Shown: one piece after another, positions 1 to 7,005 of the stretch
Layout of the letters: each line of letters starts with the position of its first letter
Numbering within the stretch: the first letter of the stretch is position 1
NCBI RefSeq assembly: GCF_025420585.1
Contig: NZ_JAOEGB010000015.1
Span: forward strand, 124,001 to 188,000
DNA from: Planotetraspora sp. A-T 1434
GTDB taxonomy: Bacteria > Actinomycetota > Actinomycetes > Streptosporangiales > Streptosporangiaceae
DNA: 64,000 nucleotides
Direction of reading: 5' to 3'
Made by a program: the position numbers and the translations under genes
The notes under the pieces: model-generated
Told to the model about the DNA's origin: nothing
The model's input: only the letters and a program-made list of their open reading frames with translations
The model's database searches: none

Positions 1-1
1 G

Positions 2-1630
2 CCCGCGCTGCACGTGCTCGATCCGGACGAGGCGGACGACCCGCAGGTCGCGATCGCGCTCGACCGGGTGGGGTCGTGGCCCGGCCTGTTAGCCCTCTCC
101 GGCCGCGAGCTCGCCGACCAGCCGTTCATCAAGGCCCGCCCCGTGCTGACCGCGCTCTTCACCGCCGTGTTCGTACGGCTCGCGCCCCAGCAGGCCACCC
201 CCGCCCAGCCGGTGGAACCGATCGAGCCCGCGGAGCCCGTAGAACCCATCGAGCCCGTAGAACCGATCGAACCGGTCCCTCCGATCGAGCCGGCGCTCCC
301 GATCGAACCGGTGGCTCCGATCGAACCGGTAGAGCCCATCGAGCCGATCTCGCCGGTGATCCCGGCCCCAGAGCCGGTCCCTGCGCCGGCCCCGCCGCCG
401 GACCGGGAGCCGGAGCCGTCCCGGCCCGTCGACCTCGACTTCCCCGCGCTCATCGACGCCGCCTTCGCCGATCTGGACGACAGGACCTGGATGGTCGCCC
501 AGAACCGGGTGTTCACCGACGCCCCCTCGGCCGTCGAGGAGCTCGCCAAGCTGCTGGCCGTCTCCCCCGATGTCATCCAGGCGCTGGAGACCGCCCTGCG
601 GGCCCGGCTGGCGGAGTGGCTGGCCCGGCCGGAGGCGGAGCCGTACGGCAGGCACCTGAAGTGGGTCGCCGGGCTCCTGGGGGTGGCGGCGCCCAAGTCC
701 CGGCTGGTCACGGCGGTGGAGTGGCACGAGCGGGAGCTGCGCTCGCTCGACGTGCCGGCCTGGCAGTTCGTCCTGACCACGCTGCCCGGTTACCGGGTCT
801 CCGGCGACTGGCTGGTGGCCGGAGATCTCGGGGAGCTGCACGGCAGGACGCGCCGCCTGATCCTCGACTCCGACCGGCCTCCGACGGTCTCCCGCGCCCT
901 GGAGCTCGTCTCCACCCTCGGCATCCATCCCGACGTGGCCAAGGAGTGGCTGGAGAACGTGCCCCAGCTGCGGATCCAGAGCAGCAACGGCAACGGCTCA
1001 CGCCCGTCCGCCGCGCAGACCCCCACGAAAACCCCAAGCCCCCCGAAAACCGACAGCCACGCGAAAACCGACAGCCCCCAGAAAACCGCGAGCCCCGCCA
1101 AAACCCAGAGTGCTCAGGGCCCGCTCAAGGACGTGGCGCTCACCCGGAGGTGCTTCCGGCAGCCGGACGGGCGCTGGTGGCTCCGGGTGGACGTCACGGG
1201 CGAGCACCTAGGCGGCGCCGAGGTGCCCCTGCCGACCGGCTTCGCCGCCTATCTGGGCCTCGCTCCGGGCGGCAGCCGTACCGTCAAGAGCGCGGCCGGA
1301 GACGTCCCCCTGGCGTGGAACGGCCGCCCGGCTCTCGGCTCGCTCCGGCGGATCCTCGGCGAGGTGGCCGCCAAGGAGGGAAGCCACATCTTCCTGACGC
1401 TCTCCGACGAGGGGATGCTGCGGGTGCGGCACCTCCCGGCGGCGAGCGGCGGCGACCCGACCACCCGGGCGCTGCGCCTGGTGGGCTACACCGCCCCCGG
1501 AGGCACCCAGGACCAGGCGGTCCGGGTGATCGCGACGAGGATCGGGCTCAGCGGGCCCGCCGGAAAGCCGGAGCTCCTCACGCGGCTGCGAGAACGCGGG
1601 GACCGCGACCTGCTGTCCCTGCTGGGATAG
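2..1630 (+). CDS. Sigma-region-4-like paralogue with Pro/Glu repeat linker (5' end cut by window)
   Basis: The frame is open to the window edge, so the true start probably lies upstream; the first internal start is GTG at 14, and numbering here is from there. The protein is a diverged paralogue of the product of 3727-5604. In order it has an N-terminal alpha-helical segment, a Pro/Glu linker built on PVEPIE (about residues 65-128), a region aligning with the sigma-70 region 4 helix-turn-helix of the paralogue (about 173-195), a Lys/Thr/Ser/Pro linker of KTxSP type (about 335-366), and a C-terminal domain (about 373-538) shared with the paralogue. The helix-turn-helix is eroded: the paralogue's RERIRQIE reads PDVIQALE here, and the winged-helix segment of the paralogue is replaced by the KTxSP linker. 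The stop lies 4 bp before the helicase start, so the two are surely co-transcribed. Function is unknown; a partner or regulator of the helicase is an inference. Confidence 0.7.
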   Translation, partial: PALHVLDPDEADDPQVAIALDRVGSWPGLLALSGRELADQPFIKARPVLTALFTAVFVRLAPQQATPAQPVEPIEPAEPVEPIEPVEPIEPVPPIEPALPIEPVAPIEPVEPIEPISPVIPAPEPVPAPAPPPDREPEPSRPVDLDFPALIDAAFADLDDRTWMVAQNRVFTDAPSAVEELAKLLAVSPDVIQALETALRARLAEWLARPEAEPYGRHLKWVAGLLGVAAPKSRLVTAVEWHERELRSLDVPAWQFVLTTLPGYRVSGDWLVAGDLGELHGRTRRLILDSDRPPTVSRALELVSTLGIHPDVAKEWLENVPQLRIQSSNGNGSRPSAAQTPTKTPSPPKTDSHAKTDSPQKTASPAKTQSAQGPLKDVALTRRCFRQPDGRWWLRVDVTGEHLGGAEVPLPTGFAAYLGLAPGGSRTVKSAAGDVPLAWNGRPALGSLRRILGEVAAKEGSHIFLTLSDEGMLRVRHLPAASGGDPTTRALRLVGYTAPGGTQDQAVRVIATRIGLSGPAGKPELLTRLRERGDRDLLSLLG

Positions 1631-1634
1631 CGCG

Positions 1635-3695
1635 GTGCCCCGGCTCGCGATCTCCCCGGAGTTCACCCAGGAGCTCGACGCACTGTCCCGGCCGGTGCGG
1701 CGGGACGCGGTCGTCGCGGTACGCCGGTTCCTGAGCAACTCGCCGGCGGCCCCCCATCCGGAGAGGGTGCGCAACAGCCGCGACCCGCGCGTGGCCACCC
1801 TGCGCCTCGCCGACCGCCATCGCGGCGTCACCGTACGGCAGGGCGACGTCTACTGGCTCCTCACCGTGCTGCCCGACGCCGAGGCGTGGTCGTACGCGCA
1901 GCGGCACCGGTTCGGGGTGAACCCCGCGATCGGGGTGATCGAGACCTGGGACGCCGAGGCGCTGGAACGGATCGAGCCCGCACTGTCGAGGGCGGCGGAG
2001 AGCACGGACCTGCGGCTGTTCGCCCACATCTGCGACGCCGACCTCCTGGGCATCGGCATCGACCACCGGCTGCTTCCCCTCCTGCGGCTGATGACCTCCG
2101 AGACGCATCTGACCGCGGTGGAGCCGCTGCTGCCGGAGAGCCAGTTCGCCCCTCTGTGGGCCCTGGCCCGGGGCGGCTCGCTGGCGGCGGCCTGGCGGGA
2201 GCTGGACCACTGCCGGGCGTCGGCCGTCGACGTGGTCGATCCCGACGACCTGGCGGCCGCGCTGTGGCGCAGCCCCGGCCAGGCCGCGTTCGCCGCCGAC
2301 CGGCACGAGCTCGACCGGATCCTCACGCTGCCGCACTGGTGCACCTTCCTCCACCCGCCGCAGCACACCTACTCCCACTGGAAGCGGTACGACTGGCCCG
2401 TGCTCGTGACCGGCGGCGCGGGCACCGGAAAGACGATCATCGCGCTGCACCGGGCGGCCTACCTCGCGCGCGCCGGCAACGGGCCGGTCCTGCTGGTGAC
2501 CTTCTCCCAGGGCCTCGCCACCGAGCTCTCCTCGCGGCTGGACATGCTCCTCGACGACGAGATGGTCCGCAAACGCGTCGAGGTCGGCAACGTGGACCGG
2601 CTCGCCCATCGCATCGTCTCCGAGGCGGAGGGGCGCTCGCCGGCCCTGGTCGGCGCCGGAGACCTGGCCACCTTATGGCAGGAAGCGGCGGGCAGCCGGT
2701 TCGGGGCCGCGTTCCTGCTGCGCGAGTGGGAGCAGGTCATCCTGGCCCAGAACCTCCGCACGCTGGAGGAGTATCAGGCGGCCCACCGTCCCGGCCGGAG
2801 CGTCGAGCTGAGCGCGGAGAGCCGCGACGGCGTGTGGGAGGCCGTCCAGCACGTCGTCGGGCGGCTGAGGGAGGGCGGCCGCCGGACGCTCCTGCAACTG
2901 GCCTCCGACGCGGCCGCGCTGCTCGGGCAGGCCACCGGCGACCTGCTCGGCGACGAGGCCCCGGGGCGGGAGCCGTACCGGCACATCGTGGTGGACGAGG
3001 GGCAGGACCTGCACCCGGCCCAGTGGCGGCTGCTGCGGGCGGCGGTGCCCGCCGCCCCGAACGACCTCTTCGTGGTGGGCGACCCGCACCAGCGCATGTT
3101 CGACACCAGGGTCGCGCTGGCCGCGCTCGGCATCCCGGCCCGCAGGTTCCACCTCAAGATCTCCTACCGGCTGCCGCAGGAGATCCTGTCATGGGGCGTG
3201 CGGCTGCGCGGCGGCGGGCCGGCCGACGGCCTCGTCGAGGGCAACGCCGAGCTGTACGGCTACCGCGCGGTGCGGCACGGGCCCCGGCCGATCGTCCTGG
3301 GATACGTCAGCCCTGAAGCCGAAATCTCTGGACTCGTCTCTCACATCGCCGGATGGCTCAAGGAAGGCGTGCCCACGCGGGAGATCGCCGTCGCCGCACG
3401 CACCGCCGACCTGGTCAAGACGGCCCGTACGGCACTGCGCGAGGCCGGCATAACGGTCAAGGTGACCATGCTCCACGGGATGAAGGGGCTGGAATTCCGC
3501 CGGGTGGCCGTGATAGGCGTGGCTGACGGAATCGTGCCGGCGCCCGACGCGCTGACCCCGGCCGCCGAGGATCCGGCGGCCCGGGCACACGATCTGCAAA
3601 GGGAACGGGGGCTGCTGTACGTGGCGTGCACGCGGGCCGGCGAGCTGCTCTACGTGTCCTATTCCGGCCGGGCGAGTCCCTTCCTGCCCGCCTGA
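1635..3695 (+). CDS. UvrD/Rep-type superfamily 1 helicase with RelE-like N-terminal domain
   Basis: Predicted ATP-dependent DNA helicase or translocase of 686 aa. All main SF1 motifs are readable: Walker A GGAGTGKT (about residue 260), motif II VVDEGQD (about 453), motif III VGDPHQR (about 481), motif IV SYRLPQE (about 509), motif V LHGMKGLEF (about 612) and motif VI LLYVACTRA (about 659). The first 100 or so residues (start MPRLAISPEFTQEL, later WSYAQRHRFGVN) resemble the RelE/ParE toxin fold seen at the N-terminus of some UvrD-like helicases. The GTG start at 1635 follows the previous stop by 4 bp. The gene sits between two paralogous sigma-4-like genes. Core UvrD/PcrA enzymes are longer and lack this N-terminus, so this is an accessory helicase; a role in DNA stress or anti-phage defence is inference only. 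Confidence 0.88.
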   Translation: MPRLAISPEFTQELDALSRPVRRDAVVAVRRFLSNSPAAPHPERVRNSRDPRVATLRLADRHRGVTVRQGDVYWLLTVLPDAEAWSYAQRHRFGVNPAIGVIETWDAEALERIEPALSRAAESTDLRLFAHICDADLLGIGIDHRLLPLLRLMTSETHLTAVEPLLPESQFAPLWALARGGSLAAAWRELDHCRASAVDVVDPDDLAAALWRSPGQAAFAADRHELDRILTLPHWCTFLHPPQHTYSHWKRYDWPVLVTGGAGTGKTIIALHRAAYLARAGNGPVLLVTFSQGLATELSSRLDMLLDDEMVRKRVEVGNVDRLAHRIVSEAEGRSPALVGAGDLATLWQEAAGSRFGAAFLLREWEQVILAQNLRTLEEYQAAHRPGRSVELSAESRDGVWEAVQHVVGRLREGGRRTLLQLASDAAALLGQATGDLLGDEAPGREPYRHIVVDEGQDLHPAQWRLLRAAVPAAPNDLFVVGDPHQRMFDTRVALAALGIPARRFHLKISYRLPQEILSWGVRLRGGGPADGLVEGNAELYGYRAVRHGPRPIVLGYVSPEAEISGLVSHIAGWLKEGVPTREIAVAARTADLVKTARTALREAGITVKVTMLHGMKGLEFRRVAVIGVADGIVPAPDALTPAAEDPAARAHDLQRERGLLYVACTRAGELLYVSYSGRASPFLPA

Positions 3696-3726
3696 TCCCA
3701 TAGTCTGAACTGCGGATATATTCCCC

Positions 3727-5604
3727 TTGCCGGTTGGACCTGCATTGAATCTGAGCCTGAGCGACATCGTGCCTCCGCTGCGCTGGACCGCACCCAGCCA
3801 AGTAGAGCCGATCGCGAGCGACCCCGGTCTCCCCGACGCGTGGTGGCAGGCACTACCGCTCGACCGGGCGTGCGCGACGGTGGGCACGGCCCAGGTCGCG
3901 TCCCGGCTTGCCGACCTCACGACCGCCTGCTGGGGACATCTGGTCCTCGGCGACATCCTGCCGCTGCTCAGGTTCACCGATCCTGAGGAGAGCCTCCAGA
4001 CGCCGGGGCCGCGCGAGAGCGTGCACAAGCTGTTCATCGGGGTGATCGACAAGCTGCTGGCGACGGAGCCCTCCGAGGGCGCCTCGGACGCCCCCGTCCC
4101 GCCCGCGCTGCCCGAGCGGCCGCTGCCCGAGATCATCGACGAGGTCTTCGCCCGCCTGGACGACCGGCAGCGGGCCATCGCCAGGGACCGCCTCTACTTC
4201 GACGCCTCGGAGGAGGCCGGGCAGCGGGCCACGCTCGACGACCTGGCCCAGCGGTTCTCCGTCACCCGCGAGCGCATCCGGCAGATCGAGCGCGATCTCC
4301 GCGACCACGTCGTCGCGTGGCTGGCGAGCCCCGAGGCTGCCCCTCTCACCGCCCACCTGTCGTGGCTGCGCACCCGGCTCGGCTCCGCCGTACCGGCCGA
4401 CGACCTCGCCGCGGCGGTGCCCTGGCACCGCACCGACCTGGCCACCCTCGCCATCCCGGCGTGGCGCTTCGTCCGCACGCTCCTGACGGGCTACGAGCAG
4501 GTGGACGGCTGGCTGGTCGCAGGAGGCGCCGACGAGCTGAGGGAGAAGACGCGGCAGCTCTTCACCGACGGGCCGCGGCCGCTGGAGGAGGCCGTGTCCA
4601 TGGTGTCCCAGCTCGGGATCCGGGAGGACCTGGCCGAGCGGTGGCTCGCCTTCGTGCCGCACCTGCGGCTCCTGGAGGGGCACGTCGTCCCGTGGCCGCG
4701 CAGCGTCAACGACAAGGCCGAGGCCGTCCTGGCCGTCGCCGGGACGCCGCTGACGCCCGAGGAGATCCAGACGCGGATCGGCGAGGACTATAGCCTCGTG
4801 GGGATCCGCAACCAGCTAACGGCCGACGAGCGGTTCCTCCGCCTCGACCGCAACAAGTACGGCCTACGGCGCTGGGGCGGCGAGGAGTATCTGGGCATCC
4901 GCGAGATGATCATCCGGGAGATCGAGCGGGCCGGGGGCGAGGCCTCGGTCAGCACGGTCGTGGGCAACCTGACCTCCCGCTACGAGGTGAGCGAGAGCTC
5001 GGTCCGGGCGTACGCCGGCGGCCCCGGGTTCGAGCGCACTCAGCGGGGCTGGATCAGGGTCGCCGGGCAGGAGCACGCCGAGCCGTACCAGCCGCGCCGG
5101 GACGTGTCGATGACCCGCCGCTGCTTCCGCAGCCGCGACGGCCGCTGGTGGCACCGGGTCGACGTCAACGCCGAGCACCTGCGCGGCTCGGGCTCGCCGC
5201 TCCCGACCGGGTTCGCCGCCCACCTCGGGATGGCTCCGGGCGGGCAGCTCACCGCCTCCACGGCGCAGGGCGAGGTGGTGATCAGCTGGCACAACCAGCC
5301 GACGATGGGCTCCATCAGGCCGGTGCTCGCGGAGTACAACGCCGCGGAGGGCGACCACGTCTTCCTGACCGTCTCCGACGGCGGCGAGCTGCTCACCCGC
5401 TTCCTGCCGGCCGCGGCGGCGAGCGTTCCGGCGCTCAACCAGGCCCTGCACCTCATCGGCTACACGGCTCCCGTGGCGTCCGAGGCGGAGGGGCTGCGGC
5501 TCATCGGCGCCCGCATCGGCCTCCCGGACGGCGCTCTCCGCGAAGAGATCCTCGAGCGTCTCCGCGAAAGGGGCGATCGCGACATCCTGGGGTTCCTCTC
5601 GTAG
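3727..5604 (+). CDS. Sigma-70 region 4-like / HARE-HTH-like DNA-binding protein
   Basis: Protein of about 625 aa without sigma region 2, so not a complete sigma factor. A classical region 4 helix-turn-helix is present at about residues 169-191 (TLDDLAQRFSVTRERIRQIE). A second winged-helix segment at about 328-383 (LTPEEIQTRIG ... RLDRNKYGLRRW) resembles the HARE-HTH domain of RNA polymerase delta subunit. The C-terminal domain (about 460-625, ending RERGDRDILGFLS) is shared with the gene at the left window edge. The start is uncertain: TTG 3727 is the longest, TTG 3745 and GTG 3770 are in frame, and no strong ribosome binding site decides. It lies 31 bp after the helicase and 9 bp before the CysRS-like gene on the same strand. 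It may recruit the helicase to DNA or to transcription complexes (inference). Confidence 0.75.
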   Translation: MPVGPALNLSLSDIVPPLRWTAPSQVEPIASDPGLPDAWWQALPLDRACATVGTAQVASRLADLTTACWGHLVLGDILPLLRFTDPEESLQTPGPRESVHKLFIGVIDKLLATEPSEGASDAPVPPALPERPLPEIIDEVFARLDDRQRAIARDRLYFDASEEAGQRATLDDLAQRFSVTRERIRQIERDLRDHVVAWLASPEAAPLTAHLSWLRTRLGSAVPADDLAAAVPWHRTDLATLAIPAWRFVRTLLTGYEQVDGWLVAGGADELREKTRQLFTDGPRPLEEAVSMVSQLGIREDLAERWLAFVPHLRLLEGHVVPWPRSVNDKAEAVLAVAGTPLTPEEIQTRIGEDYSLVGIRNQLTADERFLRLDRNKYGLRRWGGEEYLGIREMIIREIERAGGEASVSTVVGNLTSRYEVSESSVRAYAGGPGFERTQRGWIRVAGQEHAEPYQPRRDVSMTRRCFRSRDGRWWHRVDVNAEHLRGSGSPLPTGFAAHLGMAPGGQLTASTAQGEVVISWHNQPTMGSIRPVLAEYNAAEGDHVFLTVSDGGELLTRFLPAAAASVPALNQALHLIGYTAPVASEAEGLRLIGARIGLPDGALREEILERLRERGDRDILGFLS

Positions 5605-5613
5605 GCTCGGAGC

Positions 5614-7005
5614 ATGTTGCGGCTCTACGACACGCGCGCCAGGCAGGTGGAGCCGATCGTCCCGGCGGGGTCGCGGGTCCTTCGGATGTACACCTGCGGC
5701 CCGACCGTCTACCGGCACGCCCACGTGGGAAACCTGCGGTCGTACCTGCTGTCCGACCTGATCAGGCGGGTGGCGGAGCGGCACGGGCTGCGGGCCGTCG
5801 TCTGCCAGAACATCACCGACGTGGGCCACCTGGTGGACGACGCCGAGATCGATCCCACCGGCGAGGACAAGGTCCTGGCCCAGGCCCGGCGGGAGGGTCG
5901 CTCCGCGCTGGAGATCGCGCGGTTCTACGAGGACGCGTTCCGGCGTGACACGCTGGCGCTGAACATCCACACGCCGCGGCACACACCACGGGCCACCGAG
6001 ACGATCGACCTGATGATCGAGCTGATCGCCCGGCTGATCGAGAAGGGCCACGCCTACGCCGTGCCGGACGGCTCCGTGTTCTTCGACGCGACGTCGTTCC
6101 CGACTTACGGCGAAATTTCAGGGAATCGGCTTGATCAGCTCAAGCCCGGCCACCGGGTCGAGGGCGTTGACTCGCGCAAGCGGTTCCACGCCGACTGGGC
6201 CCTGTGGAAGGCCTCCGGGCGCGAGATGACCTGGGACGCTCCCTGGGGCCGCGGCTTCCCCGGCTGGCACGTCGAGTGCTCGGCCATGTCGCTGCGCTTC
6301 CTCGGGGACCGTGTCGACGTCCACACGGGCGGCATAGACCTGCGCTTCCCCCACCACGAGGACGAGCGGGCCCAGTCGAACGCGGCCACCGGCCACGAGG
6401 TCGTCGGCCACTGGGTCCACGGCGAGCACCTGCTCTTCGACGGCCGCAAGATGTCCAAGTCGACCGGCAACGTCGTGCTCCTGTCCGACGTCGCCGAGGC
6501 CGGTCTCGACCCGCTGGCCATACGGCTGGCCCTGATGGAGCACCGCTACCGGCAGCAGATGAACCTGACGTGGGACACCCTCCGGGCGGCCGACCGGACG
6601 CTCAGGCGGTGGCGGCTGCGAGTGGCCGAGTGGGCGGAGTCACCGAGCCGCCCGATCGACGCCGGGCACTCCGCGCGGATCCAGCAGGCGCTCGACGACG
6701 ACCTCGACACGCCGCTGGCCCTGCGCCTGCTGCGGGACCTCGAACGGGACGACTCGGTGGCTCCCGGATCCCGGTTCGAGACGTTCCTCCACTTCGACCA
6801 CATCCTGGGCCTGGACCTGTCGACCGAGATCGGCAAGGTCTCCGTGCTGCCGCCCGGCGCCTCCGAGCTGCTCGAACGGCGCGAGCGCGCGCGGGCGGCA
6901 GGGGACTGGGCCGCCTCGGACCGGCTCCGCGACGAGCTGACCGAGCTCGGGGTGCGAGTGTCGGACACCCCCGAGGGCCAAACCGCCCAACCCCTCCAGC
7001 CGTGA
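5614..7005 (+). CDS. Cysteinyl-tRNA synthetase-like protein
   Basis: Class I synthetase of 463 aa that would charge cysteine onto tRNA-Cys. Class motifs are intact: the HIGH-type element HAHVGN at residues 35-40 and KMSKS at 279-283. Expected zinc ligands are present: Cys28 in CGPTV, Cys in WHVECSAMS, and His/Glu in FPHHEDE. The C-terminal segment (ARAAGDWAASDRLRDEL, then DTPEG) is the usual CysRS tail, which favours CysRS over the related MshC ligase of mycothiol synthesis. Bacterial CysRS are about 460 aa, so length is normal. In actinomycetes the housekeeping cysS usually sits near ispD/ispF and rlmB; this copy instead follows the sigma4/helicase cluster by 9 bp, so it may be a second copy. 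Its stop codon lies inside the first copy of the dyad repeat array. Confidence 0.82.
   Translation: MLRLYDTRARQVEPIVPAGSRVLRMYTCGPTVYRHAHVGNLRSYLLSDLIRRVAERHGLRAVVCQNITDVGHLVDDAEIDPTGEDKVLAQARREGRSALEIARFYEDAFRRDTLALNIHTPRHTPRATETIDLMIELIARLIEKGHAYAVPDGSVFFDATSFPTYGEISGNRLDQLKPGHRVEGVDSRKRFHADWALWKASGREMTWDAPWGRGFPGWHVECSAMSLRFLGDRVDVHTGGIDLRFPHHEDERAQSNAATGHEVVGHWVHGEHLLFDGRKMSKSTGNVVLLSDVAEAGLDPLAIRLALMEHRYRQQMNLTWDTLRAADRTLRRWRLRVAEWAESPSRPIDAGHSARIQQALDDDLDTPLALRLLRDLERDDSVAPGSRFETFLHFDHILGLDLSTEIGKVSVLPPGASELLERRERARAAGDWAASDRLRDELTELGVRVSDTPEGQTAQPLQP

Follow-up and report, generated by a model that had tools for sequence, protein, structure and literature searches.

What does a DNA helicase with a toxin-like head do when it sits between two relatives of a sigma factor? 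The question is raised by three genes at the beginning of the window, by which we mean the whole stretch of 64,000 nucleotides analysed here (contig C45, positions 124001-188000) from the 7.78-Mb genome of Planotetraspora sp. A-T 1434, the home genome below. An initial annotation had described a RelE-like superfamily 1 (SF1) helicase flanked on both sides by paralogous proteins that carry, or once carried, region 4 of sigma-70 and have no region 2, and had taken the three as one module. We call the genes A, H and B. The helicase, H, belongs to the family of ArmD of the anti-phage system ARMADA, and the interpretation that we lean towards, at somewhat less than even confidence, is that A-H-B is an ArmD-type motor that has entered core use and that B and A direct to specific DNA.

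The genes are three open, co-directional and tightly spaced open reading frames (ORFs), and like all features of the window given below they lie on the forward strand. Gene A (1..1630; 614 amino acids, aa) is cut by the start of the window, and its ATG lies 215 bp ahead of window base 1 (MNFCLSDLVPPL). Gene H (1635..3695; 686 aa, GTG start) follows after 4 bp, as first annotated. Gene B has a frame open from TTG 3727, and by comparison with the starts of its relatives it most likely begins at TTG 3745 (LNLSLSDIVPPL), giving a protein of 619 aa (3745..5604) and an H-B spacing of 49 bp in place of the 31 bp read initially. This gap measures 48-51 bp in 12 of 14 loci and 64 and 67 bp in the two others; a fifteenth locus yielded no value.

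Conservation of the gene order had been set as a test of the one-module idea, and the idea passed it. Among 150 genomes drawn from the family of the window, the Streptosporangiaceae, B-type matches (E<=0.001) occur in 102 and H-type matches (E<=1e-60) in 109. We chose 62 close H genes, namely the rows leading the list at 53%-100% identity together with, for five genomes of the genus g4, the first-half rows, and every one of them has A directly upstream and B directly downstream on the same strand, with median gaps of 12 and 52 bp as judged from tblastn ends, and no stop inside the 62 H matches. The choice leaves out rows of lower identity, genome G034, where H is cut to a fragment, and two partial rows (G092:C8 and G015:C8; 52-53%, residues 234-686 only), neither of which adjoins A or B; a contig break divides B in G090 and G143. 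Judged on the 62 chosen genes, the conservation of the order exceeds chance. The triad is also present in Nonomuraea gerenzanensis. In 296 genomes across the class, all B matches of at least 77% fall within the same family and the best one outside it reaches 35%; at ten out-of-family loci with a B match (19 kb each) no called gene matches H at E<=1e-4, where calls at high G+C content in third codon positions can miss genes.

By a simple count, the ratio of nonsynonymous to synonymous change between the home genome and G022 is about 0.29 for A, 0.22 for H, 0.18 for B and 0.13 for the neighbouring dapC, and between N. gerenzanensis and G122 it is 0.36 for A, 0.30 for H and 0.12 for B. On these figures the three genes are under purifying selection.

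The helicase and its RelE-like domain

The motor part of H matches the Pfam families UvrD-helicase (1.2e-19) and UvrD_C (2.4e-11), its best PADLOC match is GajB (1.1e-26), and it has the Walker A motif (GGAGTGKT, 2412..2435), motif II (VDEGQD, 2991..3008) and motif VI of a UvrD/GajB-type SF1 helicase. Across 43 triad H proteins the Walker A lysine K266 is found in 42, with one gap, and D454 and E455 of motif II in 41, the other two being not covered. An identity with HelD was considered and rejected, as H scores 50.7 of 419 bits against HelD_BACSU and 55.6 of 750 against HelR (NCBIfam cut-offs). About residues 343-414, between the helicase motifs, are missing from H of N. gerenzanensis (L330) and of five g4-genus genomes (L349 and L396 among them), where H still occupies its triad position.

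The first 95 or so residues (1635..1919) had been predicted to adopt a RelE/ParE fold, and they do so in our models. The AlphaFold2 model of residues 1-120, made from six sequences, has a predicted local distance difference test score (pLDDT) of 84.8. All seven Foldseek matches in the PDB at E<=0.001 are toxins of the RelE superfamily (RelE, HigB, YafQ, YoeB and ParE), with RelE, 2khe, as the best (1.6e-4), and the VIA-align comparison reaches Z 9.3, with 84 residues and a root mean square deviation (rmsd) of 2.8. An H homologue in G013, 36% identical, covers all of PF05016 (ParE_toxin) and exceeds its cut-off (25 bits). Pfam has no match in the N-terminus of H itself, nor a RelE-type N-terminal match in 13 aligned H proteins among the matches listed (25 of 34 families); the N-terminal profile finds nothing at E<=10 among PDB sequences, and a profile-profile comparison with ParE proteins, using an alignment from which the wrongly placed rows L229, L230 and L243 were excluded, is weak (probability 36%, E 4e-4). 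Since these direct sequence searches are null or weak, the case for the fold is made by the model and by the Pfam match of the one homologue.

In RelE-type toxins a histidine and a tyrosine are catalytic. Many relatives of H carry them in a signature H-D-x-A-Y, in the place of which H has D-A-E-A-W (residues 81-85, 1875..1889). Of 63 distinct H-like ORFs compared, 18 from triads and 19 others cover the signature. The histidine of the relatives is lost in all 18 triad proteins (D in 16, E in 2), while the others have H in 16, R in 2 and S in 1; the tyrosine is changed in 17 of 18 (W in 15, L and H in one each, Y kept in one) against Y in 18 and W in 1 of the others. The RelE domain of the triad is probably a docking module and not an RNase.

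In trees of 31 H proteins (13 triad rows) and of 38 (14 triad rows) the triad proteins form one clade with support of 100/100. Its nearest neighbours are the short-linker H proteins and proteins beside GmrSD_N genes (one recognised by Pfam, one by eye), their mutual order being unsettled, and other relatives adjoin DISARM DrmA/DrmB, kinases, DruE-like helicases and Druantia/ARMADA-like genes. On a Pseudanabaena plasmid an H homologue of the RelE-UvrD type stands last in a set of four, after a DrmD/BrxHII-like helicase, a large methyltransferase and a DruE-like (YprA-type) helicase, which matches ARMADA type II as described, both in its genes and in their order. A second RelE-UvrD gene of the home genome stands in an ARMADA/Druantia-like set (L022:3241-14671, contig C63) that runs DruE-like helicase, RelE-UvrD, kinase, methyltransferase. 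Short-linker relatives of H with a RelE-like start (L391-L394, in G021, G110, G098 and G008) occupy another recurring place, without A or B, and near them a MerR-type regulator and a GMC-like oxidoreductase were recognised by eye.

Viral sequences were scanned with several alignments: A2 gave 4 loci, including two complete homologues of H; among the 80 loci from A7 there are 4 homologues of H that begin with a RelE-like part, and one of these lies on a contig that had come up before; the B alignment (A1) gave 11, all within residues 89-206; and A3 and A8 gave no loci. The phage collection holds no H match at E<=1e-20.

One relative joins both kinds of protein. In G092 (L389:7742-10522, contig C8) a single open frame of 926 aa runs from a sigma part through a RelE-like stretch into an H-type helicase. 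It matches Sigma70_r2 (2e-19) and Sigma70_r4 (2.9e-13), both above their cut-offs, its helicase is 50% identical to H over 470 columns, and in the H tree it falls outside the triad clade. It ties sigma-type parts to a RelE-UvrD motor independently of the triad, although a single case can be chance.

The flanking proteins

Region 4 of sigma-70 is intact in B (residues 141-190, 4147..4296; PF04545, 4.4e-7, 29.8 bits against a cut-off of 24.1) and includes the recognition helix VTRERIRQIE. Residues R181, E182, R183, R185 and Q186, which we take to be the -35-contacting residues of sigma-70, do not vary among 10 family members, the most distant at 28% identity. Pfam reports region 2 in neither A nor B, and for A no match of any kind. 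In the equivalent segment of A (464..625) the recognition helix is lost: of 16 A rows, 14 align there, and RERIRQ is absent from all of these. The C-terminal domain of A (1124..1627) is 54% identical to that of B, and A has a similar plan, with proline-rich linkers and without a HARE-like match. The description of the flanks as paralogues that have or had region 4 without region 2 is therefore correct, with B as the intact and A as the degenerate copy. With region 4 only, B was rejected as a sigma factor; it was rejected as MzaA too (35.5 bits against a cut-off of 800, residues 122-188 only).

Behind region 4, B has a putative winged helix resembling HARE-HTH (4702..4875; PF05066, 20.9 bits, under the cut-off of 25.9), which 7 of 10 members match at E<=1, and further on a predicted B3-like pseudobarrel (5131..5418, about residues 469-564 of the 625-residue ORF). 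The latter was modelled from an alignment of two sequences, B and A, at pLDDT 76.3. VIA places this model of medium confidence with plant B3 domains (VRN1, Z 9.0, 91 residues, rmsd 2.4) and with restriction enzymes that have B3-like parts (LlaJI.R1, 8.4; BfiI, 5.9; NgoAVII, 4.0), and among the 50 matches listed folds other than B3 reach at most Z 3.4. Both A and B are thus predicted to end in a B3-like DNA-binding domain. Bacterial B3-like domains are known as restriction-specificity domains, and the sigma region 4, HARE-like and B3-like modules are otherwise known from RNA polymerase parts and restriction enzymes.

Relatives of A and B are also found elsewhere. A domain of the alpha-CTD type (C-terminal domain of the RNA polymerase alpha subunit) lies ahead of sigma region 4, above the Pfam cut-off, in 2 of the 10 members scanned, the solitary B relatives L124 and L126. 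A third paralogue in the home genome (L120:9236-11185, contig C50), about 30-34% identical to A and B, has a recurring place in relatives (L121-L123), and no H match stands beside it. Other solitary relatives (L132-L135, L343; L127, L129) keep recurring places as well, next to SUF/NifU-type genes in some genomes and nuo-type genes in others, as read by eye. A profile search of genome contigs with the B alignment gave 65 loci, mostly of the sigma-4 stretch alone. On plasmids 2 and 3 of Microbacterium chocolatum (L331, L332) a UvrD gene is followed by one for a B-like sigma-4 protein and, at some distance, by a DUF4011 gene; these pairs were not counted as triads, having no H match at E<=0.01.

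Chromosomal place and upstream element

In the loci read, the surroundings of the triad are of a housekeeping type. In the first 11 triad loci (home and ten more, one of them seen in part) the neighbours dapE, dapC, fdxA, a solute-binding protein (SBP) gene and a methyltransferase gene are common, wholly or partly, and the same is true of G084, G080, G122, G062, G161, G067 and G003; the names dapE, dapC, fdxA and SBP were given by eye from the sequence and not from profiles. The upstream methyltransferase is an S-adenosylmethionine-dependent enzyme of 258 aa. In a search of 20 genomes for the place without the triad, 11 have a match to it. Three of these, G089, G016 and G060 (72-74%), have a CysS-like piece close by, with no A within a flank of 1.5 kb, and the other 8 matches (46-50%) have different neighbours. 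Downstream, the CysS-like gene C (5614..7005; TIGR00435, 381.6 bits, cut-off 340) begins 9 bp after B. It is a frequent and not a constant neighbour, on the same strand in some triad loci and missing or reversed in others, and three other loci of the home genome match it at 38-42%.

Ahead of A lies a 20-bp element, TTTGCCAGACTATGGTCTGG, which contains a palindrome of the form CCAGAC-N4-GTCTGG and in the home genome is placed 23 bp before the start of A (contig C45:123743-123762 and L021:9743-9762, at 258 to 239 bp ahead of the first base of the window). A recognisable form is present in 16 of 17 aligned triad loci, about 20 to 115 bp from the start of A, and absent in G084. Allowing up to 3 mismatches, the 20-mer occurs once in the whole home genome, ahead of A, and the reversed control not at all. 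Of 15 genomes searched, 7 have a single exact copy of the 16-mer, which by its position precedes the triad in every case; in G022 the copy in front of the triad has one mismatch, G012 has no copy, and the triad-less G016 has a one-mismatch copy elsewhere. A regulon for the element was considered and rejected, since the 20-mer is single and the 16-mer at up to 2 mismatches gives 35 hits against 40 for the control in the 15 genomes. With a single dedicated site, autoregulation by A or B would fit better than a regulon.

Readings of function and known systems

We picture the triad as a chromosomal machine whose helicase was taken from the anti-phage ARMADA/DISARM-associated family, and H may be a motor of defence that the cell has taken into permanent service. 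B, with its sigma-4 helix-turn-helix, HARE-like winged helices and B3-like domain, would together with its degenerate twin A make up the DNA-recognition or scaffold subunits that place the motor, and the two would stand in for the methyltransferase and the two superfamily 2 helicases of ARMADA. The RelE domain would be the docking part within an A-H-B complex, and the operon would be controlled from the single site upstream of A, with A or B as the possible regulator. As a standing role we would suggest genome surveillance, restraining incoming or wrongly transcribed DNA. We infer the complex, its targeting to DNA, the autoregulation and the surveillance role from the parts described above. 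Surveillance of foreign DNA is slightly favoured because H comes from a defence family and B3-like domains from restriction specificity, while the core place, the modules of RNA polymerase type and the sigma fusion speak for the clearing of transcription complexes.

The latter leads to a reading that is possible, if doubtful: B and A would recruit H to RNA polymerase or to promoters, and there H would free stalled complexes or assist repair, much as HelD, PcrA or Mfd do. The recognition helix kept in B, a HARE-like part as in RNA polymerase delta and the two solitary relatives with an alpha-CTD above cut-off are in line with it, and the G092 relative, whose sigma part has both region 2 and region 4, raised our estimate of it a little, at the cost of the other rivals; the transcription-type role suggested in the initial annotation gains weight from that one fused sequence. 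On the other side, H is far under the cut-offs for HelD and HelR, sigma-4, alpha-CTD and HARE modules double as plain DNA-binding domains, and the sigma fusion is a single case. The defence role that was suggested along with it holds for the family of H and fits the triad less well. We find it unlikely that the triad is a stripped ARMADA-like set that still blocks phages directly: the kinship with ArmD and the relatives in DISARM, Druantia/ARMADA-like and GmrSD neighbourhoods point that way, but the 19 kb around the triad (L021) contain no gene as large as ArmA, ArmB or ArmC, the longest other called gene having 742 aa, the recurring surroundings, named by eye, are of housekeeping type, and the histidine of the RelE signature is lost.

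Very improbable, in our view, are three neighbours with separate jobs, in which A and B would be old duplicated regulators between which H merely stayed. B and A relatives without H and the lone A-type protein of G025 agree with this, but the order kept in 62 of 62 cases, the tight gaps, with H-B at 48-51 bp in 12 of 14 loci, and the sigma-RelE-helicase fusion speak against it. Hardest of all to believe is a toxin-antitoxin-like module with H as a RelE toxin held back by B or A: it has the RelE fold in its favour, and against it the histidine lost in 18 of 18 and two partners of about 600 aa each, kept with a large motor.

Several observations weigh against the core-use reading that we prefer, or narrow it. 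The loss of the signature, as far as the sequences go, is not specific to the triad and extends into its nearest kin, the short-H group: in six further relatives, five with a RelE-like stretch, the tyrosine is kept in 0 of 5 and the histidine in 2 of 5 by eye. B and A relatives occur without H, so that B need not work through H, and in G025 an A-type protein stands at the place without H and B (its grouping with A has support of 100 in one tree and 82/49 in another). The B3-like model comes from two sequences, with five models ranging from 55.7 to 76.3 in pLDDT and no Foldseek E-value below 0.001. The fusion has a whole-protein match in only 1 of the 150 family genomes, and by eye nothing sigma-like can be read in any of three frames across the 2.6 kb upstream of its nearest homologue (G015, 70% over the helicase). 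That a protein binds the element is a guess. Finally, the nearness to defence genes that the initial annotation proposed to look for did not turn up; the loci read place the triad outside any defence island, which counts against a classic anti-phage role.

Taken with all its parts, the picture is of a domesticated ArmD-type motor with a dead RelE domain, settled at one core place and steered by a new sigma-4/HARE/B3 family to promoter-like DNA, as a self-regulated, transcription-linked surveillance or clearing complex of the Streptosporangiaceae on which a sister lineage converged by sigma fusion; in this full form we hold it only tentatively, as less likely than not. If true, an immune helicase has become a core part of the cell, in which the loss of the toxin signature and the exchange of targeting subunits can both still be seen, and the domestication of a defence system becomes directly testable. 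The findings also draw attention to an actinobacterial family whose members combine sigma region 4 with a HARE-like winged helix and a B3-like domain, and to the fusion of a sigma factor with a RelE-UvrD helicase. A literature search found neither the triad nor the sigma-4/HARE/B3 family described, the 2012 survey of HARE-HTH being outside its coverage, and the part of PMC12839542 available has nothing on such a triad. No description of the sigma-RelE-helicase fusion turned up either, in searches that predate its discovery. That no named system has such a composition can accordingly be upheld for the triad and not for the RelE-helicase fusion, which is already known as ArmD from the accessible part of the preprint PMC12458937.

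Among known systems, MzaA of MZA resembles B in the sigma-4 stretch, with a score far below the cut-off. Sigma-70 factors share region 4 with its RERIRQ helix with B, the copy in A being degenerate; neither protein has region 2, and the factors lack additions of the B type, the HARE-like and B3-like domains. With the B3-like domains of LlaJI.R1, BfiI and NgoAVII and with plant B3 factors B shares the predicted fold, which it joins to sigma-4 and winged helices. The toxins RelE, ParE, YoeB and HigB have the fold of the N-terminus of H, which differs by its lost signature residues and by its fusion to a motor, and GajB of Gabija has the UvrD-type helicase, to which H adds the RelE domain. Closest is ARMADA type II, in which, according to the part of the account at hand (PMC12458937), ArmA is BrxHII-like, ArmB a PglX-like methyltransferase, ArmC YprA-like and ArmD a GajB-like helicase with an N-terminal RelE-like domain. 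The ArmD mutants K266A and D454N, published there, carry numbers that in H too are those of the Walker A lysine and the motif II aspartate, a match by residue number. H differs from ArmD in its flanking sigma-4 proteins and its lost RelE signature, and carries the same fusion of a RelE-like domain to a GajB-like helicase.

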